Of a stretch of DNA of 64,000 bases, positions 3,410-21,674 are shown piece after piece. Positions within the stretch are counted from its first letter, which is position 1. Every line of letters starts with the position of its first letter. This DNA is from Bolinopsis microptera (Eukaryota; Ctenophora; Tentaculata; Lobata; Bolinopsidae): the NCBI RefSeq assembly GCF_026151205.1, contig NC_087082.1, positions 20,298,494 to 20,362,493 on the forward strand, read 5' to 3'. The notes under the pieces were generated by a model. The model saw nothing but the letters and a program-made list of their open reading frames with translations, made no database searches and was not told the origin of the DNA. A program made the position numbers and the translations under genes.

Positions 3410-5546
3410 TTACGAGGTCAATTTTTTGCGCCGTAGAAGCTGTTCAATATTTTGTGGGCAGCCCTCATCCAGAGTAATGTCTTGCTTCTGGTAGAGTCTA
3501 GGGCATCCAATACTATCCTCCCAGTTGTAGATCTTTACACCCTCGATATCACATCTAGTGGAATTAACAGTTAGATATAATAGATGTACAGCTTTTAAAG
3601 TAGAGAGATCAGAGAACGTGGCTCAGTGGCGTAACGAAGGGCCCCGCTGACCCCGCTGTGAGGGAAGGGGGGTATCTTAGGGGGGCGCCAAATCGTCGTT
3701 TGAATGTGGGACAATTTTGCTCTAGAAACACACTTTTTTAGAGATTTTACCGGCGTATCCTCTAAAATCACCTAATTTGTTCAATTTTAGGGAGGGGCGC
3801 CAAAATGGGAGGGGGCGCCAACAGGGGGGCGCATTTTTGGCGGGAAGCGCCAGCAGGCAAAGTTACGCCACTGAGTCGTGGCTGAGTATAATATGTTTGA
3901 AGATTAATTCATAGTTAAATTATTACTCTAGAAGACACAGATCGTCTAAAGGACTCTGCACCTCTGAACGTAGGTTCCCACAGCAATACACTGAGGGGAG
4001 AGTTTGTCAGTTAACCATATCTGAGCACACACGTCCACCACACAGCCCTCAATAAACGGCTCCTTTTCTACTCCGCACTCTTCTAGTCCTGCTGCTCGGA
4101 ACGCTTTCTGGCATCTCTGTGGCAGTTTGTTTGGGTTCAATTAATCAACTCAGTTTGTTTTACAGAGCATCTGGATATTGGGTTGTCACGATGAACTGCG
4201 AGTACAGATCAATAAAAGATGATGAAATGTACTTTCTATCAGCTGGAATACGCGGATCTGGAGTCTAAACATGAACTGGTAACGAGGTAACCAGGTTACC
4301 AGGTAACCAGGTTACGAACTTTCTCTCTCACCTGTTTAGCTTGTTTCCTGCTGCTGAAAGAGCACTTTTTGTTGACATTTGGGATGTTCTTCTCACATTT
4401 GTTGGATCTGTCTACGGCCCAACTATCCCCAACCACCACTTCATCACCCGTCACTCCTCTTCTAGAGAATAAGAAACGTTTTGCTATTGAACGTTGAACT
4501 AGGGTTAACTCAATTCAATTTATCCGACTCATTCATATGCTACAACAAAGCTTATCTCGCTCAGTTCAAGTTCAAACCTGTTTTTAACTAGTTATAATTA
4601 TAATTATATTAAAGTATTAGTATTTAGAAATAATATTAATAATATTAGAAAACTATTACCTTCCCAGTAGATCGTTATCTGGTTCCAGGTCGTTATTACC
4701 GCACAGCCCACACGTAGTAGCCTCAGCAGGAGCCAAGATGTGAACTGAAACTAAACCGTCCCAAACCACCTCAACATCTAGTAGAAGGACAGTTGTCAGG
4801 TAATTTTAATACTGGATCACTTGACAAAGTTAAGTTATAATAACAGCTGATCAAAATCGTATTGTTACAACTAAAAAGTTTCTTTTCATAATATTAATAA
4901 GGATTAAATAACTGATTCACTCGTACTTGAAGCATCAAGTTTGACCCTCAGATTTCTTCCATCAAATGAGATGGTCATGGGCCCGTTCCTAACAGTCTGA
5001 TCGAGAGTGATGTTCATCTTCTCTCCTCCGAGGTTGATTACCCAGCCTCGCTGTAGCTCCACTGCTGATCCGCCCGAGAATAATGTTATCGAACTGGACA
5101 TTTAGGTTACCATAGTTACCATAGTAATAATTAGTGGCAAATTAATGAATAAGGGTACTGATAAGAATCCTGCTATCTCTGCAATACAACTCTTATATTG
5201 TGCGAATTTTATATCTTGCGTTTAAAAATCATATAAAGTTATTTTGACGAAGGTGAATATAATTTGAGACTGTCTCACAAGCTATAGATTGCTGAAGTCA
5301 GATAAAATAATGAATAACTCCAGAATAAATAATGAGTTACGACAGATGAAATAATTACTTACCTCAGGCAGGAACCACGAGCACTAGTTGCAGAACATTT
5401 ATCCATTTTACCGTAGACCAACCACCCAGCAAACTGACAGTCCATAGCGAGAACATAAGTGCACTCTCCCATGAAGTCGTACGTAAACCCATCAAATGTG
5501 ATGAGGTGGGGGTCTCCAAATACTGTACACACCTTGTAAATATAAT
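3410..5546 (-). CDS. VWD-C8 domain secreted protein, 3' six exons
   Basis: Minus-strand exons are 5363-5546, 5093-4927, 4777-4660, 4461-4332, 4116-3962 and 3554-3410 (stop TAA). All have GT-AG borders, and phases match at every junction. Exon 1 has the VWD signature [21 protein letters not shown]. Exon 2 completes the beta-rich VWD core ([23 protein letters not shown]). Exon 3 has the hallmark CGLCGNND. Exons 4-5 form a C8-like cysteine module (RCQKAF, EECG, CVVDVC). Exon 6 is a short cysteine-bearing tail. Proteins of this class (mucins, zonadhesin, SCO-spondin and relatives) are secreted and often multimeric. The upstream part with the signal peptide is not found before the divergent tubulin gene, so either upstream exons lie beyond it or this is a fragment. 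Domain call is firm; gene identity is unknown. Confidence 0.88.
3624..3873. mobile_element. hAT-type MITE, copy 1
   Basis: A 250-bp non-coding element begins CAGTGGCGTAACG and ends in a near reverse complement, AGTTACGCCACTG. Its interior is about 80% similar by eye to the element at 42364-42638. It sits in the intron between exons 5 and 6 of the VWD gene. The flanks (ACGTGGCT left, CGTGGCT slightly offset right) suggest an imperfect 8-bp target duplication. Confidence 0.75.
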
Positions 5547-5826
5547 CTGTAATCAATTCAGTTCCAATTAGTGTAATTACAGACTTGAAGAGACATTGAA
5601 TTTAGTTATTTTATTTTCCTATTGCACAAGATTGATAATTAGATACAAGATCTGTACAGTGTACTGGAGCGAGTTTCTTGAAACATATAAATAATACGAT
5701 AGTTTGTGGTAACTTTTTAAAAACATGTGTTAACCATCTTCAGTTGTTTAAGCTTTATCGTGCGATGTTTTGTCTAATATGCGAGCTAGGTAGCAAAGAT
5801 AAGCGTGCTGCATGTGATAATAATCA

Positions 5827-5890
5827 CGTGATCACATGGCACTCCATATATGGGCATCACGTGTCCATATATGGACATCACGTGGTCTAC
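5827..5890. promoter_or_regulatory. Paired CArG boxes with CACGTG/CACGTGT motifs
   Basis: Two perfect CArG boxes, CCATATATGG, lie at 5844-5853 and 5865-5874, exactly 21 bp apart (about two helical turns). Between and around them are CACGTG-type E-boxes (TCACGTGA at about 5824, ATCACGTGT, ATCACGTGG). CArG boxes bind SRF/MADS factors, and CACGTG binds bHLH-Zip factors. They lie about 170-200 bp upstream of the tubulin TATA box, so a role in the tubulin promoter is likely but inferred. Confidence 0.55.
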
Positions 5891-6036
5891 CTATTCTTGT
5901 GATAATAGTAACGTGATTTGGCTGTTCATGTTAAGTTTAACGGAGAGACAAGTAAGAGCTAAGCAGCAGCATGCACTGCAGCATATCTGCAACTAACAAT
6001 CACTGCACTCCTTGGTAACGGTGATTCAACTAATAT

Positions 6037-6044
6037 ATATATAA
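6037..6044 (+). promoter_or_regulatory. TATA box of the beta-tubulin gene
   Basis: TATATAAG lies about 80 bp before the tubulin ATG. The transcription start would be expected near 6065-6075. Confidence 0.6.
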
Positions 6045-6112
6045 GACACCGAATCAGTGGACAGGCATTACTATTTTTCAACTTTTCATCAACTTAAGAT
6101 TGTTCCAGTTAA

Positions 6113-7863
<1,751 letters not shown>

Positions 7864-9740
7864 GTTCTCACCTCGCATACAGTAACTAGTGACGTCATCG
7901 CACTATCTAGTGACATCATCACGCTATATTCCTTCAACATTCAGTAATGAATTGTAACGGACGATAACGTAGGGAGATGTTTAATTTAATGTAACGTGAT
8001 TTTTTAGTGGACGCTTAAAAGAAGACATAGGACAATTTTCTGTGTCTTTTTCTGGGAATGTTTCATTATAATTTCATATTCATTCGCAACTGTTTGTAAA
8101 ATTCTTGCAATTTCATCAACAACAAAAAAATGTGTTTTAATTCTAACATTTTCCAAATCACAGTGCTGGCAAGCACGACCGTTGCATTTATTGTGGGTAT
8201 ACTATGTTCCCCATTTACTATTATACCCCTTTACTATTATACCCCCTTAACTATATACCCCCTTTGGTACACGTTACAAGCCTCTTTTGTGCACGCGAAG
8301 CGTGCACTCCGGCCGGGGGCGGCGGCCGAAGGCCGCCGCCTCCGGCAGGAGTTTTCCAGGCATTAAGACTCATCGGAAGTCGTTAAGCAGAATTATTTTT
8401 AGTTCAAAACATTCTAATTTGATGTCAACGATGACAGGAATAAAAAATAGTTATGTTGAGATTTTTAAGAAATTTGCATAAAATACTCGCCAGCACTGTT
8501 ATACGAAATTCGGTAAAAAACCCAAAATCGCCATATTCAGGTGCCTTAAAAACCATGTTAAAATTGAGTTAGAGATCTGAAATTTTTCAGGGCGTCTAGA
8601 CGTTGATCAAATCGACTGCAAAAAAAGTTTCAGGTTTCAGGAGTATCGGGAAATGGGTTTTCTAGAACCCCTGTTTTACGACAGATTGTCGTGATATATA
8701 TATTATATATACATATTCAGGGATAGACGCTTTGCCAGTCAATTGTAGCCTGTATTTAATTGTCCATAGATTCAAAAGTATAAAAGATAAAGCCATTTCC
8801 GACCACAGGTCTTGCAAATAATTGTTTACACTTTAGTTTACATTGTATAAAAAAATTATTTGACGTCATAAACACCCCTTGATGACGTCATCAAGTTAAC
8901 CGTTTTTAAAACTTGATTTTTGACAAAGTAATAACTTTTAAAATTAATTTTAAACCATTAAGGAGTAATTTTATTCAAAATCTGAGGAGATTTTCATCTT
9001 AGATAATTGTTCAAGCATTCTGAAAATCTACCGGAAAGTTTTTCTAGCTTGCTCCTTCATAAAGATATTCGTCATTGAAGTTTGTGCTTTTTTGAAGAAT
9101 TATTTTATAAAAACGTCAATTTTGTGATTTAGTATTCTCTGGTGTTGGGCCATGCCTTGAGTTGAGGAGCTCAGTTCTGCTTCCTATAGGTATAAATTGT
9201 GCATTAGGCTAGTTTTGAAGTTGAAAATCGAAAAGTTGCACACGTGGGGACACGCCCAAATTGATAGAAAATTGCTAAAATCACTGAAAATTGCTGTTTT
9301 CGTCATTTTCTGTCAACTTTAGAGTGCCGTTGTGATTACAGTTCTTCTTGAAATACTTTGAAACTTTGCATGCTTATCAAGCTATATATAAAACAATTAC
9401 ATGAAAAAATTTACGGCGATTCAATATTGGATGCGCACGCAACGTCCGCTCAAAGTTTGCACGTGCGAAAGGTGAGAATTTTGCTCATTCGTGATTTCCA
9501 ACAAATTCTGCTTTGCCACGACAGTTTAATGTCATTATATATGAATTTAATGCCAACTTGAATGAGTATTAGGTGGCATATTCAGTCAGTGATCGACCGA
9601 TATGCTTACCTAAACAAAAGGAAATGTTTTTAAAGGAAAATTTCGAAATCGTTGAAACTTCCTCCTTATTAATTAATGAAGATATCAGTTTATATTTCGA
9701 CTTTATAAAGTACCCTGACATTATAATCAAAAAGAGATGA
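7864..9740. other. Intergenic, no gene seen
   Basis: AT-rich sequence with no convincing exon. About 8287-8352 is an abrupt GC-rich island (GGCGGCCGAAGGCCGCCGCC) with strong hairpin potential, preceded by GCACGCGAAGCGTGC, also self-complementary. Confidence 0.6.
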
Positions 9741-10248
9741 TATTTTACCAAAACCCATATTCATGGGTAGAGTGGACCGCTGCCAGTGTCTCTCTTTCCC
9801 AAACAAAAGGAAATGATATTAATTTGATTGACCGTTCTCAAATGCAAAATGATACCGAGAATGAAATCGGTCGCTCGCTTTTCCCATTCATTTACAATTG
9901 TAATAGATTAAGAAGATCTACCCAAAGGCAGCTGTACTCGGCAATAAAGATTCAATAAACTTCAGCTAATTCAATAAGCAATAACTACTACCCTTACCCC
10001 GAAATACTAGGTATCGATCCGAACGCAACCCAAAGAGATTTTTACAGCATCTGACTGATGTAATCAATCGAAATTTATTACAATTCGTAAGCCGTGAATG
10101 AATGGAAAAAGCGAGCGACCGATTTCATTCTCGGTATCATTTTGCATTTGAGAACGGTCAATCAAATTAATATCATTTCCTTTTGTTTGGGAAAGAGAGA
10201 CACTGGCAGCGGTCCACTCTACCCATGAATATGGGTTTTGGTAAAATA
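9741..10248. mobile_element. Small foldback/MITE-like inverted repeat
   Basis: Arms 9741-9893 and 10096-10248 are near-perfect reverse complements of about 153 bp. They start TATTTTACCAAAACCCATAT and end in the reciprocal GGGTTTTGGTAAAATA. The unique centre is about 200 bp. No coding content or clear target duplication was found. Probably a non-autonomous DNA element. Confidence 0.75.
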
Positions 10249-10336
10249 CTGTACACAGATAATGTAGTATGGAAACAAAATACTCGATTTAGAGTTGGAC
10301 CCTAATAGAAAAACTCTATTTCATAGCTTTGGCTTG

Positions 10337-10405
10337 ACATGTAACCATAGTAACCATAGTAACCATAGTAACCATAGTAACCATAGTAACCATAGTAACC
10401 ATAGT
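10337..10405. repeat. CCATAGTAA tandem repeat
   Basis: Seven or more 9-bp units of CCATAGTAA in direct tandem. Related GTTACCATAG units occur near 15370 and 16745. Confidence 0.85.
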
Positions 10406-10638
10406 ATCTCTACGAATTACAGAGCTTACTGTAACCATGGTAACTGTATTGAGGGGACGCTAATCTTAAGATCCCCCGCTGAATTAGGGTCTAGACTCAT
10501 ACCATCAGCCTCTTAAGTTTTACATATGCTAAGTTGGGCCGGGGTGCAGCCTCTTATCTTGCAGTTTTATATACGCTAACGTGTTGTGGCACATGTGTTA
10601 AGCTCATGAACCTGCCGGTTCGTGAACCAGACTGATGT

Positions 10639-10678
10639 TAAGAGTTTGAACAGCGTTTAAACGCTGTTCAAACTCTTA
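10639..10678. repeat. 40-bp perfect palindrome
   Basis: A perfect inverted repeat with no spacer, centred on GTTTAAAC; each arm reads TAAGAGTTTGAACAGCGTTT from outside in. Pairing stops exactly at the outer bases. It can form a cruciform or hairpin. Confidence 0.95.
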
Positions 10679-11351
10679 GACGGTCTGTATTTATGGTGAT
10701 GCAGCAAATGTTCCTATAAATATTTGGGTAACTTGACTCAGTTATTAGTCCTTACATCGAGGTCACATGAACTCAGAGGCATCATGACTCTACGAATGAA
10801 CTTATGAATAGTAATTAGTAAGGTGTAGGTAACAGGGCCGGTGATATATGGTCTCTCCAGAATCGTGATATCTGATACACACGAGACTGTCATCAGTCAG
10901 TTACCATGGGTACAGTCGCCCAGTGATCAACAGGGGCGGCTCTTTGGAATCCTGATCTCAGATCAGAACTCAGATCAGAACTCTTTTTATAAACCTCGCT
11001 CAAATCGAGAGTTTAAGCTCCATAGTCCATTGTTTATCACTTCCTTAGTGAGCTGGTGGGCAGGGTATCCTCCTATGTTTGGGTAATTCTTTCTCCATCT
11101 AACCCAAATCATTAGATTGATCCCGTCCACGGTAAGGTTCATGAATATTATGGATCATCTGATTATAGATATAAGTGTAGCACATGGTACCTGGAACCTG
11201 TGACTAATTATTGCATTTATTTGTCTGTTTTGATGTTTATTGATAAGAAATTGTCGGCCCTATTTTCACTACCAGTACCTGGAACCCCCAGATCATGTTC
11301 CAACAATGATCTTTAGCTTAGACGTCACCTGATTTGTGGTTATAGGCAGCC
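10679..11351. other. Intergenic, no gene seen
   Basis: No exon or repeat beyond short motifs could be supported here. Confidence 0.5.
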
Positions 11352-11882
11352 GTGTTAAGATAACTGGTCACTTAGTTGAACTCTTTACTCGTTATACGTC
11401 TTGTATTATTGTGTTAAGATAACTGGTCACTAAGTTGAACTCTTTACTCGTTATACGTCTGGTATTATTGTGTTAAGATAACTGGTCACTTAGTTGAACT
11501 CTTTACTCGTTATACGTCTTGTATTATTGTGTTAAGATAACTGGTCACTAAGTTGAACTCTTTACTCGTTATACGTCTGGTATTATTGTGTTAAGATAAC
11601 TGGTCACTAAGTTGAACTCTTTACTCGTTATACGTCTGGTATTATTGTGTTAAGATAACTGGTCACTTAGTTGAACTCTTTACTCGTTATACGTCTTGTA
11701 TTATTGTGTTAAGATAACTGGTCACTAAGTTGAACTCTTTACTCGTTATACGTCTGGTATTATTGTGTTAAGATAACTGGTCACTAAGTTGAACTCTTTA
11801 CTCGTTATACGTCTGGTATTATTGTGTTAAGATAACTGGTCACTAAGTTGAACTCTTTACTCGTTATACATCTGGTATTATT
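11352..11882. repeat. 59-bp minisatellite, nine copies in two variants
   Basis: Nine 59-bp units begin GTGTTAAGATAACTGGTCAC. Two linked variants alternate: CTTAGTT with CGTCTTG, and CTAAGTT with CGTCTGG. The order is A B A B B A B B B, showing duplication of multi-unit blocks. Confidence 0.9.
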
Positions 11883-12059
11883 GTGACAAGTTATCTGTCA
11901 TAGCTTGATTCGTGCGTATTCAAGTTTTGATCCATCTAAAATCATCAAAATATAATACAGCTGCTGTTTGTTTGTTGATACTTTGATAGTGTTGGATAAA
12001 TATTCTAAAATCATTCCATATGTTATCTAAATAACTAAGTTATGTAGCTGCTATCTGAG

Positions 12060-12460
12060 TTTGATAGGTTGCATCACACTCTATAATAACATAACGCTAT
12101 AATAACACTATGTAGTATGTAATGGCACTATGCAGTATGTAATGGCACTATGCAGTATGTAATGGCACTATGTAGTATGTAATGGCACTATGTAGTATGT
12201 AACGGCACTATGTAGTATGTAATGGCACTATGTAGTATGTAACGGCACTATGTAGTATGTAATGGCACTATGTAGTATGTAATGGCACTATGTGATGCAC
12301 TATAATACTCCAGTAGGACTATAAGATTAGTCTACTCCACAGTTCTTAAGGGCTATTCTGACCTCACAATTAACATGGGTGTGTTGAGAGTGCCGTATCC
12401 GGTGCGGCTAGCTCTGCGTTTACATTTGTTTGTGTGTTTACAGTTGTTTGGGCTTTCAGT

Positions 12461-12495
<35 letters not shown>

Positions 12496-12990
12496 TGACT
12501 GGTGGTGCAAATATCCCGGGTCTAAATTATGTAGCTGCTAGCTGAGTGACTATCTTTGATCACACTCTATAATAACATAACGCTATAATAACACTATGTA
12601 GTATGTAATGGCACTATGTAGTATGTAATGGCACTATGCAGTATGTAATGGCACTATGTAGTATGTAATGGCACTATGTAGTATGTAATGGCACTATGTA
12701 GTATGTAATGGCACTATGTAGTATGTAATGGCACTATGTAGTATGTAATGGCACTATGTAGTATGTAATGGCACTATGTAGTATGTAATGGCACTATGTG
12801 ATGCACTATAATACTCCAGTAGCACTATAAGATTAGTCTACTCCACAGCTCTTAAGGGCTATTCTGACCTCACAATTAACATGGGTGTGTTTGCAGTATC
12901 CGGTGCGGCTAGCACTGTGATTTCAGTAGTTTGTGCGTTTACATTTGTTTGTGTGTCTGTGGTGACTGGTGGTGCAAATATCCCGGGTGT
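12060..12990. repeat. Duplicated module with 20-bp arrays
   Basis: Two successive modules of about 480 bp each contain CACTCTATAATAACATAACG, then an array of the 20-bp unit GTAATGGCACTATGTAGTAT (about 12100-12290 and 12590-12795), then a shared tail with CTCCACAG and ATCCGGTGCGGCTAGC. A (GT)n tract of about 28 bp lies at 12467-12494 in the first module only. Confidence 0.85.
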
Positions 12991-13205
12991 ATACCATACT
13001 GTATTACTGATGTGATGTTTGGAGAGGGATATCTGGCGTAGATCGAACTTAGTTTATGTTGTTGCAGTATTGTTGTAATATTTTTGATACTTTTTTGAGT
13101 TAAATAGAGGACGATAAATTAATGTTTTCGTAATTGATGAATTTTTGTTTAGCAATGATTAATTACCATGGATTTATTTAGGCAAGGTTCAACCTAAGAT
13201 CAGAG

Positions 13206-14179
13206 ATGATCATGGTGATGATTATCGTTCTCATGTCCATACTCGAGGCGAGAAGTGAAGGAGGTAAAACATTTCCAAATAATCATGAGTTTAGAAGTTC
13301 AGAGTGCATCGCTTTTAGCACTTTTATGATTGACTCGGTGCCTACTGCCATTCCATCAAGATAATCATCATTGAAATTAATTTGATTAATTCTATCTTTC
13401 AGTGTGAGTACCTGCAGTTATAGGCACAGAATACCAGCATAACATCGCTCGGCGACCACTCCAAATAAGAACAAAAGACAAACTGGAAAAGGCTGACAAG
13501 ATAGCAGTAGCTATCAGAACAGACAGTAAACTGGTTGGGGTGATCAAGCTGGAGTTCTTCCCTGACAGTGAGGATCCTTATGTGAGCTACTCAGTACAAC
13601 ACTGCACTGGGAATGAGACTCAGAATGTAGGGGAGAAGTTGGGGGAGACTGGGAGGGGCTTCAAGGAGTTCAAGATAACGAAGGATGAAGAGAGGCTGGT
13701 CCTTGTATGCGATGGAGTGGAGTTAGTGACAATGGTTACATTCTCCTCCACCTCCACTGACTTTCCCGGTATAGGAACTTTCAATAAGTCTCAATTTGAA
13801 ATTGTAAATAACTTGATTTAACTAATTTAACCGTTGATTTTAAAGAAGTGAAGGTAAAATTGGTGAAAATGTTCTTCTACAGATTGCATAAAGAAATGGG
13901 CTGGTGATACGAGCATTGTTAAATTCTGGTCAAAGAGCAACGCTCAGGAAACTATTCTTCTGTACCCCAGTAAGTATTATATATTAAGTAACTAAAATAA
14001 GTAAGTATAATATATTGAATATTTAACTTACTATATTTTATTATGTATTATCATTGAGTAATTAGTTGTAATGAAACGAAAAGGGATTTGTTTCATTCCG
14101 ACTAATTCACTACATTTAACTTAGAATATAACTTCATATCAACATTGAATCACAATTTCTCTCGTTAGATCCAAACTGA
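13206..14179 (+). CDS. Small secreted protein, four exons, unknown function
   Basis: Exons are 13206-13263, 13418-13768, 13883-13969 and 14169-14179 (TGA), giving 168 residues with consistent phases. The acceptor at 13418 was chosen because using 13403 gives an immediate stop. The N-terminus MIMVMIIVLMSILEARSEG is a clear signal peptide. The mature part is beta-rich looking, with KLVGVIKLEFFPD, a lone SVQHCTGNET (N-glycosylation site) and a C-terminal DCIKKW block. The pattern loosely recalls secreted beta-sandwich modules, but I do not recognise the family. The stop lies 15 bp from the stop of the convergent Ig gene. The fourth exon is only 11 bases, so the C-terminus is the least certain part. 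Confidence 0.65.
14037..14042 (-). promoter_or_regulatory. Possible poly(A) signal of the VWA-Ig-Kazal gene
   Basis: The minus strand reads AATAAA about 150 bases past the stop at 14195. If used, the 3' UTR overlaps the convergent gene's last intron. Confidence 0.35.
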
Positions 14180-14194
14180 AATGTTAACCATCGT

Positions 14195-17100
14195 TCAAGA
14201 AAACCCAATATAACCCAAATCAAGAAGCTCCCCTACCCGTTTCCTAGACTCCAGGTTATCAGGCCGGAATGTGGGAGTAGGTGTGACCTCCTCCTCCACT
14301 TCCACTACCACTTCCTGACTCCGGTACTCTCTCTCACACTGTCTAGCTTCACACCTGTATCTCCCTTTGTCACGTGAGCTGAGCGAGGTGACACGGAGTA
14401 CGGACCTCGAGGACACCTGATGGAGATACGAATATCAGAATCAGGAGAGTCAGTGCTAGGATTGATATTTATTTTAAATTTAACCATTTTAGTTAATATT
14501 AGCTGTCTTCAGGTACCAAGTACTTTGATAAACCTTATTCGTGATAAATCTGGCAGATCTGGCAGACTCACCCTAGCAACACTCACCCTAGCAACAGTAC
14601 TCACCCTAGCAACAGTACTCACCCTAGCAACAGTACTCACCCTAGAAACAGTACTCACCCTAGCAACAGTACTCACCCTAGCAACACTCACCCTAGTAAC
14701 AGTAAATACTCACCCTAGCAGCAGTAAATACTCACCCTAGCAATAATAAACACTCACCCTAGCAACAGTACTCACCCTAGCAATAGTACTCACCCTAGCA
14801 ACAGTACTCACCCTAGCAACAGTACTCACCCTAGCAGCAGTACTCACCCTAGCAACAGTACTCACCCTAGCAACAGTACTCACCCTAGCAACAGTACTCA
14901 CCCTAGCAACAGTACTCACCCTAGCAACACTCACCCTAGTAACAGTAAATACTCACCCTAGCAGCAGTAAATACTCACCCTAGCAATAATAAACACTCAC
15001 CCTAGCAACAGTACTCACCCTAGCAATAGTACTCACCCTAGCAACAGTACTCACCCTAGCAACAGTACTCACCCTAGCAACAGTACTCACCCTAGCAACA
15101 GTACTCACCCTAGCAACAGTACTCACCCTAGCAACAGTACTCACCCTAGCAACAGTACTCACCCTAGCAACAGTACTCACCCTAGCAACAGTACCGTCTT
15201 CAGAAGTCCTGGTCCAGTACAGCTCAGGAGTAGGAACAGCGGACTCTGACACTGAACAAGTCAGTCTCAGAGTCTCTCCTACTGAGTAAAATAGTTGACT
15301 TCCCGCGTTGACTTGAAGACTGGGCCTCGCCGTCCTCGGGCAGAAACCTGAGGGGTGGCAGAGAGTTACCATAGTTACACTACTAGTTACCATAGTACAC
15401 TGAACTGAACATGCGTGCAAACAGAGTTTTAAATACTGTACAGACATGGGTTAAAAACAACGGTCTTAAACTTAATGTAGGAAAAACTAAATACATGATA
15501 TTCACTAACAGATTACCAGAGGATATAAATATTAGTATAGAAGGACAGCGACTAGTGAAAAGTGAACATGAACGATTTTTAGGTGTCATTATTGACTCAA
15601 AACTTAGCTGGAGCCAGCACATTAAACAGTTAAAGACTAAAATATCCAGAAATGCAGGCGTAATGATGAAACTTAAAAGTTCCATTCCGAATAAAGCTCA
15701 AAAAATGCTATACAATAGTTTAATTCAATCTCACCTGTATTACTGCGCTACTGTTTGGGGTACTACTACTAAATCTTTAAATTCCATTCAGTCTTTATTC
15801 TCTGCTCAAAAGAAAGCTATTCGCGCCACTGATTCAGAATATCATAACTATTTTTACGACAAAGAAAAACGTAAACTACCATCTCACACAAAATCCATCT
15901 TCAACAAAATAGGAATTTTAGCTCTTCCTAATCTCATTGCTAAAAGCTGTCTAACTTTGATGCACAAGGTTTATATGGGAGTAGCACCATCGAGTATCTG
16001 TAGTATATTTGAAAAATCGCCGCTTAGACAAACGGAAAGGAGAAATCCAAAGTATTTTGAAATTAAGTTCAACAGATTACGGATCACCGATTATAGCATC
16101 TCTAACGTAGGACCACGATTATATAACAACACGATAAACGAAATAAATAAAATCCTTCCCTTCAACTTACCTAAGTTACAAGATAAGTTTATTAATTCAT
16201 ACAAGGACAACATTGTACGTTACTTACAGGACAAACAAAAACTTGACCTAGAAAACCTTTCGTGGACGGACAAGAACTTTGTCCTTTACAACTTTTAAAC
16301 AAAATATTAGCAAAATATAACAGCTGTAAAAATCCTAAACGTTAGTGCAGTCAAATAAATGAACTGCGATAATGCATTTGACAGTCAGTCACTGCAATTT
16401 ATTCTGCAACTTATTTTTCAATTTTCACTGCCACACTTAGGCTTATCTTGCCTACACATTTTTTAAAACGAAATTCCTTGCGCACCGCGTACTAAAATTA
16501 CTTGGATTTCTACCGCTTTGATAAATGACTACAAGAAGATGGGGAGTTAATATTGTTGATTTATATAATATAGATTATTTATTCTTTAGTGTAGATTAAC
16601 TTTATTTTTATATATTTAACCAAGTGTGAAGGATCAACCATACGTTATTGATATTTTTGAAATATTTAACGATAAATTAATATAATAATAAATGATTGTA
16701 ATATTTTTATTGAGGCACATGCCACCCCATCGCGGGTTTACTACTTACTACTACTATAGTTACACTACTAGTTACCACAGGTACACTACTAGTTACCATA
16801 GTTACACTACTAAGCAGAGGCTGGGAGAACATGATGTGGGTTCGGATCTGACACATTAATTCTGTTTCAGGAGGAAATTACACTGTAGCACCTACCACAC
16901 CCCTACATATATGTAAAAACTGACACTGTTAAAATTAACAAGTGTATGTCCACCGTTAATACTTTAATATTAATTGAGATATTCCCGAATGGAAGAATAT
17001 CTGGAAACAATCTGTCACCCAGAGGAGGGGGGGCACATAGATACGTTTCGTCACTGACGTCACCAGCCCACCAGTTGCCAAGTGTTGTCTTGACTCACCA

Positions 17101-20100
17101 TCATAAGAAACCACAGTGACATTAGTTCCCTCCCTGCAGTTTTCTTGTGTCACGTGACAGGGATTGTAGAAGCTCCTACAATCTGATCCGCACACCGGAC
17201 TGTATTCAGTATTTTGGCACTCCGGACACACGCACTCCGTCGTACCTGCAATATCTAGTCAGTCTCACACCGGACTGAAATCCGGTGCTGTCTTTTTAGC
17301 GGTGATTTAAACGGTCTGATTGTAGTCCTAAACAAAATTAGTCAGTATAAAACAAACTGATCAAGAAAACAAAATAAAATAATATCGTTTTCTGAAAACA
17401 ATAACCCACATAAACGTATTTAAAACGTGCAGATTGAAGTTGCTCGTTCCCTCAATAATACGAACAGAACATTACCAGTAACATAGTCAGCTTGACAAGT
17501 CTGACCAGCTCCACAGTTCACATCTTTACACAGATCCAGGACTCTGAGGTAAGCGTCCTGGAAGTCATCACCCCACGCGTTAGAAGCAAGACACCTGTAC
17601 CATCCTGTAAATTATAATGTGTTCAATAATCACGCGTTAGAAGCAAGACACCTGTACCATCCTGTAAAATATAATGTGTCAATAATCACGTGTCAATCTA
17701 CAAATTTGTTTAGTCAATTGGACATATTAACCATTAGAGCTGAAGTAGTTCTGATACGTTGGAATAGAATCTGTAAGACTGGCCTCTAGCTCGCCATTTT
17801 TTAGATTCAAGCAAATCGAGGATGTTCAAAGGGTGCAGAATGTTCAGCTCGACAAAATACCAGTGGTAATTATTCCGTAGGCTGTAAAATGACTCCTCCA
17901 TGTCCATATCCTTAAATAATTGGACATAACCACGTGGTAAACTGCACGACAACAAAATATTAGCCTTTGAATCACTAGCTGTGAATGATGAAGATGCTAG
18001 CTGTGAATGATGAAGATGCTAGCTGTGAATGATGAAGATGCTAGCTGTGAATGATGAAGATGCTAGCTGTGAATGATGAAGATGCTGTTTGAATTTCAAC
18101 CCTCAAATTTATAACACTCCCTGCAAGCTTATCACTTTCGTAGCACGTGTTGTGCACGTGGTAGTGCCACTTCAATATAAACAATTATCATCATTCGTAC
18201 CTTCGTTTTGTTGGTTGACCTCTTCAAACTCTTGTATTACTGATACCACAGTAACTCTCTCTCCTCCGATCATCTCTGGAACCGCTCTGTTCACTCCGTC
18301 TGATCGCAGTGTTATTGTAGTCAGGGGGGCCGGGGCTCCTTGTGACTTACAGCTGAAACAGTGTTATTGTAGTCAGGGGGGCCGGGGCTCCTTGTGACTT
18401 ACAGCTGAAACAGTGTTATTGTAGTCAGGGGGCCGGGGCTCCTTGTGACTTACAACTGAAACAGTGTTATTGTAGTCAGGGGGGCCGGGGCTCCTTGTGA
18501 CTTACAGCTGAAACAGTGTTATTGTAGTCAGGGGGGCCGGGGCTCCTTGTGACTTACAGCTGAAACAGTGTTATTGTAGTCAGGGGGGCCGGGGCTCCTT
18601 GTGACTTACAGCTGAAACAGTGTTATTGTAGTCAGGGGGGCCGGGGCTCCTTGTGACTTACAGCTGAAACAGTTTTATTGTAGTCAGGGGGGCTGGAGCT
18701 CCTTGTGACTTACAGCTGAAACAGTGTTATTGTAGTCAGGGGGGCCGGGGCTCCTTGTGACTTACAACTGAAACAGTGTTATTGTAGTCAGGGGGGCCGG
18801 GGCTCCTTGTGACTTACAGCTGAAACAGTTTTATTGTAGTCAGGGGGGCTGGAGCTCCTTGTGACTTACAGCTGAAACAGTGTTATTGTAGTCAGGGGGG
18901 CCGGGGCTCCTTGTGACTTACAGCTGAAACAGTGTTATTGTAGTCAGGGGGGCCGGGGCTCCTTGTGACTTACAGCTGAAACAGTGTTATTGTAGTCAGG
19001 GGGGCCGGGGCTCCTTGTGACTTACAGCTGAAACAGTGTTATTGTAGTCAGGGGGGCCGGGGCTCCTTGTGACTTACAGCTGAAACAGTGTTATTGTAGT
19101 CAGGGGGGCCGGGGCTCCTTGTGACTTACAGCTGAAACAGTTTTATTGTAGTCAGGGGGGCTGGAGCTCCTTGTGACTTACAGCTGAAACAGTGTTATTG
19201 TAGTCAGGGGGCCGGGGCTCCTTGTGACTTACAACTGAAACACTGTTAATGTAGTCAATAACAGTGTTTCAACTGTAAGTCAACAGTAATATCAACCGTA
19301 CCTGAACATTGCAGTTGAGCCAGGAGGAACTGTAATATTAAACGTACCTGAACATTGCAGTTGAGCCAGGAGGAACTGTAATATTAAACGTACCTGAACA
19401 TTGCAGTTGAGCCAGGAGGAACCGTAATATTAACCGGGGGATCAGTTATAATGGCAGCTACCCTCAGTCCAGGGATTATATCCACGTCTCTGTTACCATC
19501 GTTTATCACTACCTGAACAAATGGAGATTATAATACATGCAGCTTATTCCTATCATCCCTGGACTGTGTAACAAAAGTGCAAGTTTCGAAAAGTTTGGAG
19601 ACACTTAACAATGCACTAAACGGGTTAAGGAATAAAACAAGCAGTTTGTAGTACGTGATTTGTGCTTCACCTCGTTGCTGAAGGTATCTGTATTCCGGCC
19701 GGTATTCCGGCCGACGTCCAGCGCTTTAGTGAACGCACTGTATTCGTATTTAGGACTAGCTGTCGTCTGGCTGCTCTTATCTGTTATTATTAGGTTATAT
19801 CGTTCAGTTTAGAAATGTTCAGGAGACTTTAATCCGTTTAGTATCGGAGCTTGGGAAGCAGTACGTCATTGATAAATACTAATTATCACCAAATAATGAG
19901 TTAGTCTGACATGCATCAAATATTTCAAGTGGAAATTTCCCACTCAAACAATGTAAGTTATATCCTCAAAACTAGTAATGTTTCATGTTAGCCCAACTTA
20001 CCCTTATTAAAGAACTCAGTAGATGTCAGAGGGAGGGTCTGAGTAGAAAAGGAGACGGTTCTAGCTGCTCCAAAGTTAATGTCCTCAGTAGCGGAGGGAG

Positions 20101-20520
20101 TAGGGATGTTCAGGCTCTTCAGAAGCTGGCACACTGTGAGCAGGTCGTCTGTGTACCTGTACAGTATAACTCTGATTTACTGCTATTATCTTCCTCCAAA
20201 TGAAGTCTTTACTATTTTATACATTATGTGAACGATTTACCGCGGCTGTTTACTTTCCCCAAACTCCGCGGTTAACCGGGGTTTGACTGTGAGTTGATTT
20301 TCTTCCAACGTTAGTGACTATACAGTTAACAGGTCTCATAGTCCCGTGTCAAATTATTAATAGATCAGCCTAGCTTGAAATCTCAACAGTATAATTCACG
20401 AAATAGCCCTGTTATTCTGTTGTTATACATTTGCTGTTAGAGTCTGCTGCTTCAGCTTACCTAGAACAGATGGCTTGATGTTTACATTGAGTAAAAAGAC
20501 TAGCTGTTGAACACTTCACC
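14195..20520 (-). CDS. VWA-Ig-follistatin/Kazal-Ig extracellular protein, nine 3' exons
   Basis: Minus-strand exons are 20520-20461, 20156-20002, 19780-19671, 19512-19394, 18352-18201, 17604-17476, 17245-17099, 15347-15181 and 14416-14195. They join into one open frame of 419 residues with every phase matching. The first four exons look like part of a VWA domain (INFGAARTVSFSTQT, then VVINDGN and GLRVAAII). Next is an Ig domain (PPVNITVPPGSTAMFSCKSQ to GWYRCLASNAWG), a follistatin-like CKDVNCGAGQTC, a Kazal domain (EYSPVCGSDCRSFYNPC to YDGFC), and a second Ig (GETLRLTCSV, LYWTRTSEDG, RDKGRYRCEA). VWA plus Ig recalls hemicentin-like matrix proteins; Kazal-Ig pairs also occur in follistatin-like proteins. 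The 5' end with signal peptide is not located. Four exon borders lie inside tandem repeats, and a LINE fragment sits in the intron before the last Ig. Confidence 0.85.
14566..15193. repeat. 18-bp minisatellite carrying a splice donor in each unit
   Basis: On the minus (gene) strand the unit is GTGAGTACTGTTGCTAGG, about 30 copies in three sub-blocks. Degenerate linker units (AGTAAATACTC, AATAATAAACACTC) recur at about 14700-14755 and 14940-14997, so one block is a duplicate of the other. Each unit carries AGG followed by GTGAGT, a near-ideal 5' splice site, and starts exactly at the donor of the exon ending at 15181. Confidence 0.95.
15405..16298 (+). mobile_element. 5'-truncated LINE, C-terminal reverse-transcriptase region
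   Basis: About 295 open residues, ending with TAA at 16298. They carry post-catalytic LINE motifs: GLKLNVGKTKYMIF, FLGVIIDSKLSW, and SHLYYCATVWG, followed by a C-terminal RLYNN block. The catalytic YADD region is absent, so this is a 5'-truncated copy. AT-rich 3' sequence runs to about 16735. It is inserted in the intron between the Kazal and second Ig exons, on the opposite strand. GTTACCATAG/GTTACACTACTA units flank both ends, suggesting insertion into a short minisatellite. Confidence 0.85.
17575..17688. repeat. 57-bp tandem duplication spanning a splice acceptor
   Basis: Two copies of a 57-bp unit begin ACGCGTTAGAAGCAAGACAC. In gene orientation each contains an intron 3' end, TTTACAG (lower) or a TTTTACAG variant (upper), followed by the first 30 or so coding bases of the exon that starts at 17604. 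The second, upstream acceptor is at 17661. Confidence 0.9.
17977..18086. repeat. 22-bp tandem repeat, five copies
   Basis: Five near-identical units starting AGCTGTGAATGATGAAGATG, within the intron between exons 18201-18352 and 17476-17604. They do not touch an exon border. Confidence 0.9.
18309..19250. repeat. 52-bp minisatellite spanning a splice acceptor, about 18 copies
   Basis: Units of 52 bp (51 in a few, one G fewer) run from 18309 to about 19250. In gene orientation each contains TGTTTCAG followed by CTGTAAGTCACAAGGAGCCC, i.e. the intron end plus the first 41 or so bases of the Ig exon that begins at 18352. Units also contain CTGTAAGT, a donor-like site two bases after the acceptor. 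Variants include TTTTATT and GGCTGGAGC forms repeated in order. Confidence 0.95.
19290..19428. repeat. 46-bp triplication spanning a splice donor
   Basis: Three 46-bp units each carry, in gene orientation, GGCTCAACTGCAATGTTCAG followed by the donor GTACGT, plus ATTACAG ahead of it. Donor positions are 19394, 19348 and 19302. The first is contiguous with the exon 19394-19512. Confidence 0.9.
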
Positions 20521-21674
20521 CTGTTCTCTTCAACCTTATCACGTGTTTGACAGGTTGTCAATCTCCAGCTTGAAAACAACACAACACAACACAAAGCAAG
20601 CATGTTTACCTAAAAGTGTAATTTATTTGCCCTCTGTGCTAACTTTCCTCTAAAGACTCTCTCTCTCCTAGTTGGCCCTCCACGCCCCAAACAAGCTCCT
20701 ATTGGCTCTCCTCCCTCAAGCCAGGCCCTTATTGGTGGAGAGAGCATGTCTGAGCGGTAACCCAGTTATCTAATTAACGTTTTAAGGAACATGCGTCACA
20801 GTCAAATGGGTGATCGGTTAATTGAACGGATGTGAACTGAGCTGGGACCATGCTGATCTATCAAGGTGTTGATAGTTGATGTGTTGATATGTTGATAGTT
20901 AAAGCTACAACCGTGTTATTGTTATTGTGTTTTTAGTATTGTAGTGATCCTGTGATATAACCATTCTAATCGAATTTGGTTTAGACAACTGACAAGTGCT
21001 GGTGAAGTTTTTATTTGTACGCTTTGTTAAAGTCTAGTAGTACCAAAGTTTTTAACTTAATATAAACTTGTCAAATTTCAAAATTCCTGCCAAGCGTCTG
21101 TACTATAGAAACCGAAAAGGTATCCGGCTGAATTCAGACCAGAGCTCGGAATTTCAAAACTTTTCAGAACATTTTTCTATCCATTCATAACTTTGAGTAA
21201 CATGCCGGGTATTACTATTTATGTTACAGTTAAGGTGTCGGGGCCGAATGAGATATTTCTGCAGGATTTGATGTCTGATAATCATGAATCAGGCTAAATC
21301 ATGTCATTGGGATTAAGGTTTATGCAAAAACCGTTTTGTTCAGCTGCAAAACCATAATTAACGGGCGATACTAGTAAAATATTTGTTCCAAATATATAGG
21401 ACCGTCGACGAGTCCAACTCGGCACACGTCCTGGTAGGTTATAAACCTACAAAACCATAAAAACCAAAGTCACGTGATAATTTTAAGGCAAGCGAAAGTA
21501 AGAGTAAAAGACTAAAAGCCAATTAAATTGGATATGCTCAATATGCATTTGCTTCAAGAATTTTGTGCTGGCCGAAATTAGCGTTAAAAAACCATATTCA
21601 ATACTAGTACTACTAGTACTATACACTATACTAATCAGTATGCGCGGCCTACCACAAGTACATGATTTTATTAA
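20521..21674. other. Presumed upstream intron/intergenic region
   Basis: This should hold upstream exons or introns of the minus-strand VWA-Ig-Kazal gene. One very short candidate exon (ending before the donor near 20610) is phase-compatible but too short to support. Otherwise AT-rich, with no gene seen. Confidence 0.4.

Follow-up and report, generated by a model that had tools for sequence, protein, structure and literature searches.

Four minisatellites spanning splice junctions of one SCO-spondin-like gene in the ctenophore Bolinopsis microptera

We have analyzed a stretch of 64,000 nucleotides, here called the window, from the genome of the ctenophore Bolinopsis microptera (positions 20,298,494 to 20,362,493 of contig NC_087082.1, assembly GCF_026151205.1), in which four minisatellites each span a splice junction of one and the same gene. 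This host gene is located on the minus strand and corresponds to the NCBI protein "SCO-spondin-like isoform X2" (P0001, 721 amino acids). A protein search with the assembled exons returned four proteins, the best of them P0001 at 98% identity, and the exon chain (20603..3410) translates letter for letter into P0001 plus the stop codon. Since the chain equals P0001 exactly, the four junctions covered by arrays all agree with the public gene model. The 14 introns of the gene are all of the GT-AG type, making 28 splice junctions, 16 of them within the part from exon 1 to exon 9. Two Ig domains, Kazal, VWD and C8 were identified in the host protein with Pfam. An earlier description, made from the letters only (the sequence-only reading), had called this a VWA-Ig-Kazal gene; the Ig and Kazal domains were found as announced, while the VWA reading was rejected because the Pfam search of the host protein gave no VWA match, and gave VWD (and C8) in its place.

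Table 1 Features of the host gene and its repeat arrays (window positions)
Feature	Position	Strand	Description
Host gene	3410..20603	minus	15 coding exons, Ig-Kazal-Ig-VWD-C8; exact translation to P0001
18-bp minisatellite	14566..15194	minus	donor of exon 8 (15181); 14 bp exonic
57-bp unit, 2 copies	17574..17690	minus	acceptor of exon 6 (17604); 31 bp exonic
52-bp unit, 18 copies of TTTCAG/	18307..19257	minus	acceptor of exon 5 (18352); 46 bp exonic
46-bp unit, 3.3 copies	19282..19433	minus	donor of exon 4 (19394); 40 bp exonic
Intron 4, 1041 nt	18353..19393	minus	almost wholly copies of its own two edges
Predicted hairpin	19225..19285	minus	24 outer + 2 inner pairs, -32.7 kcal/mol, RNA parameters
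22-bp array, 5.1 copies	17975..18086	minus	within intron 5, no junction touched; ordinary intronic comparison
Degenerate 22-bp array, 77% matches	5305..5362	minus	begins with the first nucleotide of intron 10, without exonic bases; not among the spanning arrays

Arrays and unit lengths were taken from Tandem Repeats Finder (TRF), and together with the exon chain they bear out that four arrays each straddle one splice junction, as the sequence-only reading had noticed. Two of these junctions are donors and two are acceptors. In all four arrays the repeat unit consists of an exon edge plus an intron edge, and the extra copies are found throughout on the intron side. The splice site is present as 34 donors in the 18-bp array, two acceptors in the 57-bp array, 18 acceptors in the 52-bp array and three donors in the 46-bp array; only the first of these numbers had been given wrongly before, as 30. 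The proportion of junctions involved had also been overstated, as four of eight internal junctions, when four of the 28 junctions of the 14-intron chain are involved, and four of 16 in the part from exon 1 to exon 9. The donor AGG/GTGAGT of the 18-bp array recurs with 15-22 nt between neighbours, and this array carries a higher-order repeat of 243 bp. In the 52-bp array the acceptors are 51-52 nt apart and 12 of the 18 copies are identical. The site of the public gene model is the exon-proximal copy in the four cases, that is, the first donor or the last acceptor. The name "mirages" was given to tandem repeats across exon-intron boundaries in the amphioxus gene Adh3, others having been described in amphioxus globin genes (PMC3087553), and we use it here.

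Most of the extra copies would damage the protein if they were used. A frameshift or a stop would follow from 43 of the 53 extra splice-site copies, the other 10 leaving the frame open. Actually, only 1 of the 18 acceptors in the 52-bp array and 1 of the 3 donors in the 46-bp array give an open frame (17 and two copies, respectively, break it), and in the 57-bp array the frame is open from the exon-proximal acceptor alone, the other copy breaking it. The 18-bp array is more permissive, with 11 of its 34 donors keeping the frame open, the annotated one included, and 23 breaking the protein; the 10 inner frame-open donors would insert hexapeptides of the TVARVS type. Since these 43 copies break the frame they are unable to replace the true site, which argues that they are tolerated and not used. 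In the 52-bp unit TTTCAG and GTAAGT are separated by 2 nt. From the acceptor of one copy to the GTAAGT of the next, 16 candidate cassette exons of 53-54 nt can be delimited, 14 of them open and in frame, which as far as their sequence goes are possible material for new exons.

Intron 4 is built of the 46-bp and the 52-bp copies, which are separated by a spacer of 24 bp. The hairpin is predicted to form from this spacer and the beginning of the 52-bp array, with part of the 52-bp unit present in inverted orientation as its left arm. Within the 18-bp array a spacing block of 22-22-22-15 recurs and, in the 52-bp array, one variant with three changes is present at three separate places. These block patterns show the marks of ordinary minisatellite turnover.

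The introns themselves could be dated by comparison with paralogs. Intron 4 is conserved in position and phase (phase 2) in the gene of protein P0004 (L029, on C12), a protein 39% identical, and intron 5 is conserved in position and phase (phase 1) in L035, another paralog on C12 (read by eye). Each being common to one paralog, both introns are older than the arrays. L035 and a further paralog, L036, align without interruption across the place of intron 4, and L036 also across that of intron 5, the P0004 gene has an intron of its own 30 nt downstream of the intron 5 position, and many paralogs are single open frames throughout. The existence of paralogs without these introns, or with different ones, indicates that the family has gained or lost introns during its history. 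Among the apparently intronless paralogs, which match the host gene over hundreds of residues in one open frame of up to 882 codons, are C1:2779496-2781271, C1:2922067-2923842 and C13:2834723-2836237; judging from these sequences, the family may have spread by retroposition, with a few intron-bearing copies remaining. The exonic part of the 57-bp unit (17604-17574) ends by eye about 2 nt from the place (residue 213 of P0004) of that gene's own phase-1 intron, the one 30 nt downstream of the intron 5 position, possibly by chance and possibly as a trace of intron sliding by duplication.

How far the four arrays exceed chance was approached in several ways. In the host gene itself, the single-copy footprints of its 21 arrays (period of at least 12 bp) were placed at random. 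A mean of 1.15 spanning arrays was obtained, with P(≥4) = 0.024; using the unit length only, the mean was 0.90 and P(≥4) = 0.011, and 0.79 and 0.0065 when wholly exonic places were allowed as well, all these P values being uncorrected for the choice of the gene by its striking look. The placement rows limited to strong arrays were not used, the 18-bp array (88% matches) being missing from them. The excess of junction-spanning arrays in the host gene is therefore modest, and a range of 0.007-0.024 for a gene picked as striking gives weak backing to the earlier statement that the arrays are far from a random placement.

Minisatellites (same period cut-off) amounted to 13.1% of 240 kb from 25 random 10-kb stretches (N excluded), and to 11.4% of 254 kb made of the window and 20 random stretches; the window alone had 10.1% and is not richer in them than the sampled stretches. 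Such dense minisatellites in the sampled DNA indicate that founder events are frequent everywhere. In six recognisable genes of the random sample, an array touched 3 of the 68 junctions predicted, as opposed to 14% of positions taken at random around them, nearby exons lowering the array rate at the junctions of this sample. One of the three (L014) looks real by eye, its choice of acceptor being ambiguous. Three further intron-bearing loci of the family (L029, L035 and L036) contained one spanning array, a mirage of L035 with a 63-bp unit, at least 6.3 copies and located at the end of a VWD exon. Three intronic arrays in this family (L029:420-512, L029:5576-5698 and L035:1412-1691) stop 4-8 nt before the acceptor, none entering the exon; they may be old mirages with a diverged exon copy, or arrays halted at a constrained site. 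A home-made ab initio gene finder was unreliable and was not relied on. Its first self-trained rounds, which called 441 and 854 exons, were dropped, and when introns were penalised more heavily 13 of the 15 host-gene exons were recovered, with 23 exons called in total. By its predictions, arrays taken as one copy covered 8 of 184 junctions in the window plus 20 random stretches versus 1.8% of intron interiors, and four of these eight junctions belong to the host gene. Several gene-finder hits corresponded to a coding-looking repeat of 312 bp in L031, and the coding score missed the open exon frame in L043. The L031 repeat (L031:2810-7727) is a tandem array of 15.8 copies that is apparently coding.

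We have also counted splice words along the complete 264.65-Mb genome, taking as a tandem pair two words with a spacer of 8-38 bases. The strong donor word AGGTAAGT formed 1515 tandem pairs versus 38 for the reversed word, when the single occurrences were 10758 versus 7965 (1.35-fold), and AGGTGAGT formed 1507 versus 223 (pairs only), all of these being pair counts inflated by long arrays. The control pairs (TGAATGGA) are likewise pair counts and not loci. At the level of arrays, in 304 kb of window and random DNA containing 176 arrays, the splice words tried were mostly 0.5-2.2 fold over expectation; GTAAGT was found in 6 arrays versus 2.4 expected and GTGAGT in 2 versus 1.6, the exceptions being GTACGT (5 versus 1.1) and TTTACAG (4 versus 1.1).

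Because long arrays inflate the pairs, loci were counted instead, by eye. Among the matches listed, AGGTAAGT had 11 loci over the whole of C1 and AGGTGAGT had 8 within the initial 15.8 Mb of that contig, making 18 distinct loci with one common to both words. Flanks were fetched for 10 of the 18, mostly the longer arrays and in 7 cases on one side only, the remaining 8 being mainly single pairs. In two of them (L037 and L040) the flank was still array and hence uninformative. The eight informative arrays comprised two that straddle a junction whose exon has homology support, three that probably do so, two that stop near an apparent acceptor and one (L047/L048) at which no exon was seen. L041 has a junction-spanning array at an ADAM-like exon (Reprolysin, E = 0.0012, residues 1-45 of 71), in which the part beside the junction is supported by the open frame and not by the Reprolysin match. 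L038 has one at a copine-like exon (Copine, E = 0.0003; BONZAI1 in PDB, E = 5.4e-7 over all 44 residues). Both exons being fragments, their Pfam scores did not reach the curated cut-offs, as was to be expected. The three probable cases are L049, with an open exon of 63 codons and no Pfam match, L039, with no match, and L045, in which the donor itself is copied, while by eye the arrays of L043 and L042 stop about 4 nt and about 20 nt from the apparent acceptor. Having been selected through a splice word, these arrays are evidence of the recurrence of mirages and not of an excess over chance. One 32-bp unit is arrayed twice on C1 (C1:36576-37703 and C1:761375-762150), about 725 kb apart, perhaps in a duplicated gene or region; at C1:761375-762150 the unit takes in a donor site together with some 22 bp of exon.

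Two other open frames were detected inside introns of the host gene. A long one within intron 9 (8.7 kb), at window positions 6447-7637 on the plus strand and opposite to the host gene, resembles a beta-tubulin. Another one, in intron 7 (15396-16295, plus strand), lies between two stretches resembling a single 21-bp minisatellite, as if inserted there, and resembles the end of the reverse transcriptase of a non-LTR retroelement.

Altogether we consider it likely that the four arrays are mirage minisatellites in the simplest sense, ordinary duplications that happened to span a junction in a minisatellite-dense genome and were tolerated. Neutral origin plus purifying selection on the exons explains most of the structure. 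The founder duplications would have arisen by ordinary slippage, template switching or unequal exchange of a segment that by chance included an exon-intron boundary, and would have been tolerated because splicing from the exon-proximal copy keeps the mRNA unchanged. Once in the intron, the arrays would have expanded as minisatellites ordinarily do, the splice machinery presumably taking, in spite of the near-identical copies, the one nearest to the other end of the exon, as in exon definition. Several points weigh against this explanation. The four spanning arrays in one gene are somewhat above the random-placement prediction, and the unreliable gene finder, run on the 25 random stretches, had 4.0-5.7% of its junctions covered versus 1.9-2.5% of intron interiors, depending on the settings. 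The pair excess of the donor words, led by AGGTAAGT, could mean that arrays are truly enriched at splice sites and not placed there by chance. Furthermore, accurate splicing at the exon-proximal copies would follow from the NCBI protein model, on which this part of the argument leans. These same excesses, in pairs and in gene-finder junctions, are what would be expected from a mechanism that preferentially duplicates junctions, such as fold-back at inverted repeats or breaks that transcription or R-loops would favour at strong splice sites, and the composition of the eight word-picked arrays and the hairpin predicted at the edge of the 52-bp array would fit as well. However, arrays picked by a splice word are necessarily biased to junctions, the control against which the inflated pairs stand is made of pair counts only, the splice words were mostly close to expectation in the 176 arrays, and the junctions of the six random genes were touched less often than random positions (with the lowering by nearby exons mentioned above), so that we regard such a mechanism as unlikely. 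The duplication of junction-spanning segments suggested by the sequence-only reading is real and recurs at L035, L041 and L038, its excess over chance being modest. Somewhat more improbable still is that a junction-biased duplication, driven by transcription, splicing or fold-back, continually produces splice-site arrays in ctenophores and supplies candidate exons and introns, the 52-bp array, in which 14 in-frame cassette exons of 54 nt stand ready, being one such nursery.

The ordinary origin of the arrays was also weighed against three other explanations. Selection could maintain spare splice sites, either as a back-up or as a reserve for regulation, a purpose that the frame-open donors of the 18-bp array and the open cassette candidates of the 52-bp array might serve. 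This idea, also put forward in the sequence-only reading, is contradicted by the frame being open for only 10 of the 53 extra copies; functional redundancy was rejected for most copies on account of the broken frame, the public protein uses none of the alternative sites, and we give the proposal very little credence. Introns could instead be in the process of being born through tandem duplication of segments bearing AG/GT. The closeness of TTTCAG and GTAAGT in the 52-bp unit, by which neighbouring copies could define new introns, the absence of introns 4 or 5 from other paralogs in a family where introns turn over, and the precedents of a potato gene (PMC4974935) and of the proposal for amphioxus globins (PMC3087553) are consistent with it. 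A link with intron turnover is in this sense reasonable, and is in print for amphioxus and potato, but introns 4 and 5 are not newborn: the same sites and phases in the P0004 gene and in L035 reveal them as pre-existing, no new intron was seen inside an array, and intron birth at these two places is highly improbable. Finally, the repeats could have been collapsed or expanded during assembly, given that the copy number of long arrays depends on read length and polishing and that some sampled stretches hold runs of N, maybe gaps. The same layout is, nevertheless, shown by independent arrays elsewhere, in different genes and on different chromosomes, and the exon copies keep intact reading frames, making an artefact hardly credible.

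These arrays extend mirages, a lancelet curiosity, to a distant animal phylum, and suggest that they are common in at least one ctenophore genome. They are also natural experiments of splice choice, with 34 near-identical donors or 18 near-identical acceptors among which the gene model takes the exon-proximal one, and show what models of intron gain by duplication need to start from, before any new intron is seen. If a junction-biased process were true, mirages would be a standing supply of candidate exons and introns in ctenophores.

The arrays belong to a known type of structure, which they add to a new phylum, and their clustering within a single gene is unusual. A search of the open-access literature (titles and openings of abstracts) found no report of mirages in ctenophores. 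In amphioxus, mirages affect both types of boundary, have units of 10-160 bp, apparently leave splicing undisturbed and show length instability, and a role in intron gain has been proposed for those of the globins (PMC3087553). Besides the Adh3 mirage (Cañestro et al. 2002, as cited in PMC3087553 and PMC3902484), others were described in PGBD5 and TnC (PMC3902484). Like these and the globin genes BflGb6/BflGb9, the Bolinopsis units span the boundary, involve both boundary types and have the extra copies in the intron, and their lengths of 18, 46, 52 and 57 bp fall within the amphioxus range (PMC3087553). Regular splicing is reported to be apparently unaffected by the amphioxus mirages, and in Bolinopsis the NCBI protein model predicts the exon-proximal choice at the four arrays. 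What sets the ctenophore case apart is the phylum, the presence of four arrays in one gene and an intron with mirages at both ends. In the potato RdRp gene a boundary-crossing duplication has been linked to a new intron (PMC4974935); there too the duplicated segment crosses the intron-exon boundary and carries splice signals, whereas here no new intron is evident and introns 4 and 5 are each common to a paralog. Unit lengths, homogenised copies and higher-order blocks are those of ordinary intronic minisatellites or variable number tandem repeats, from which the four arrays differ in that the founder unit contains coding sequence and the splice site of the gene model.

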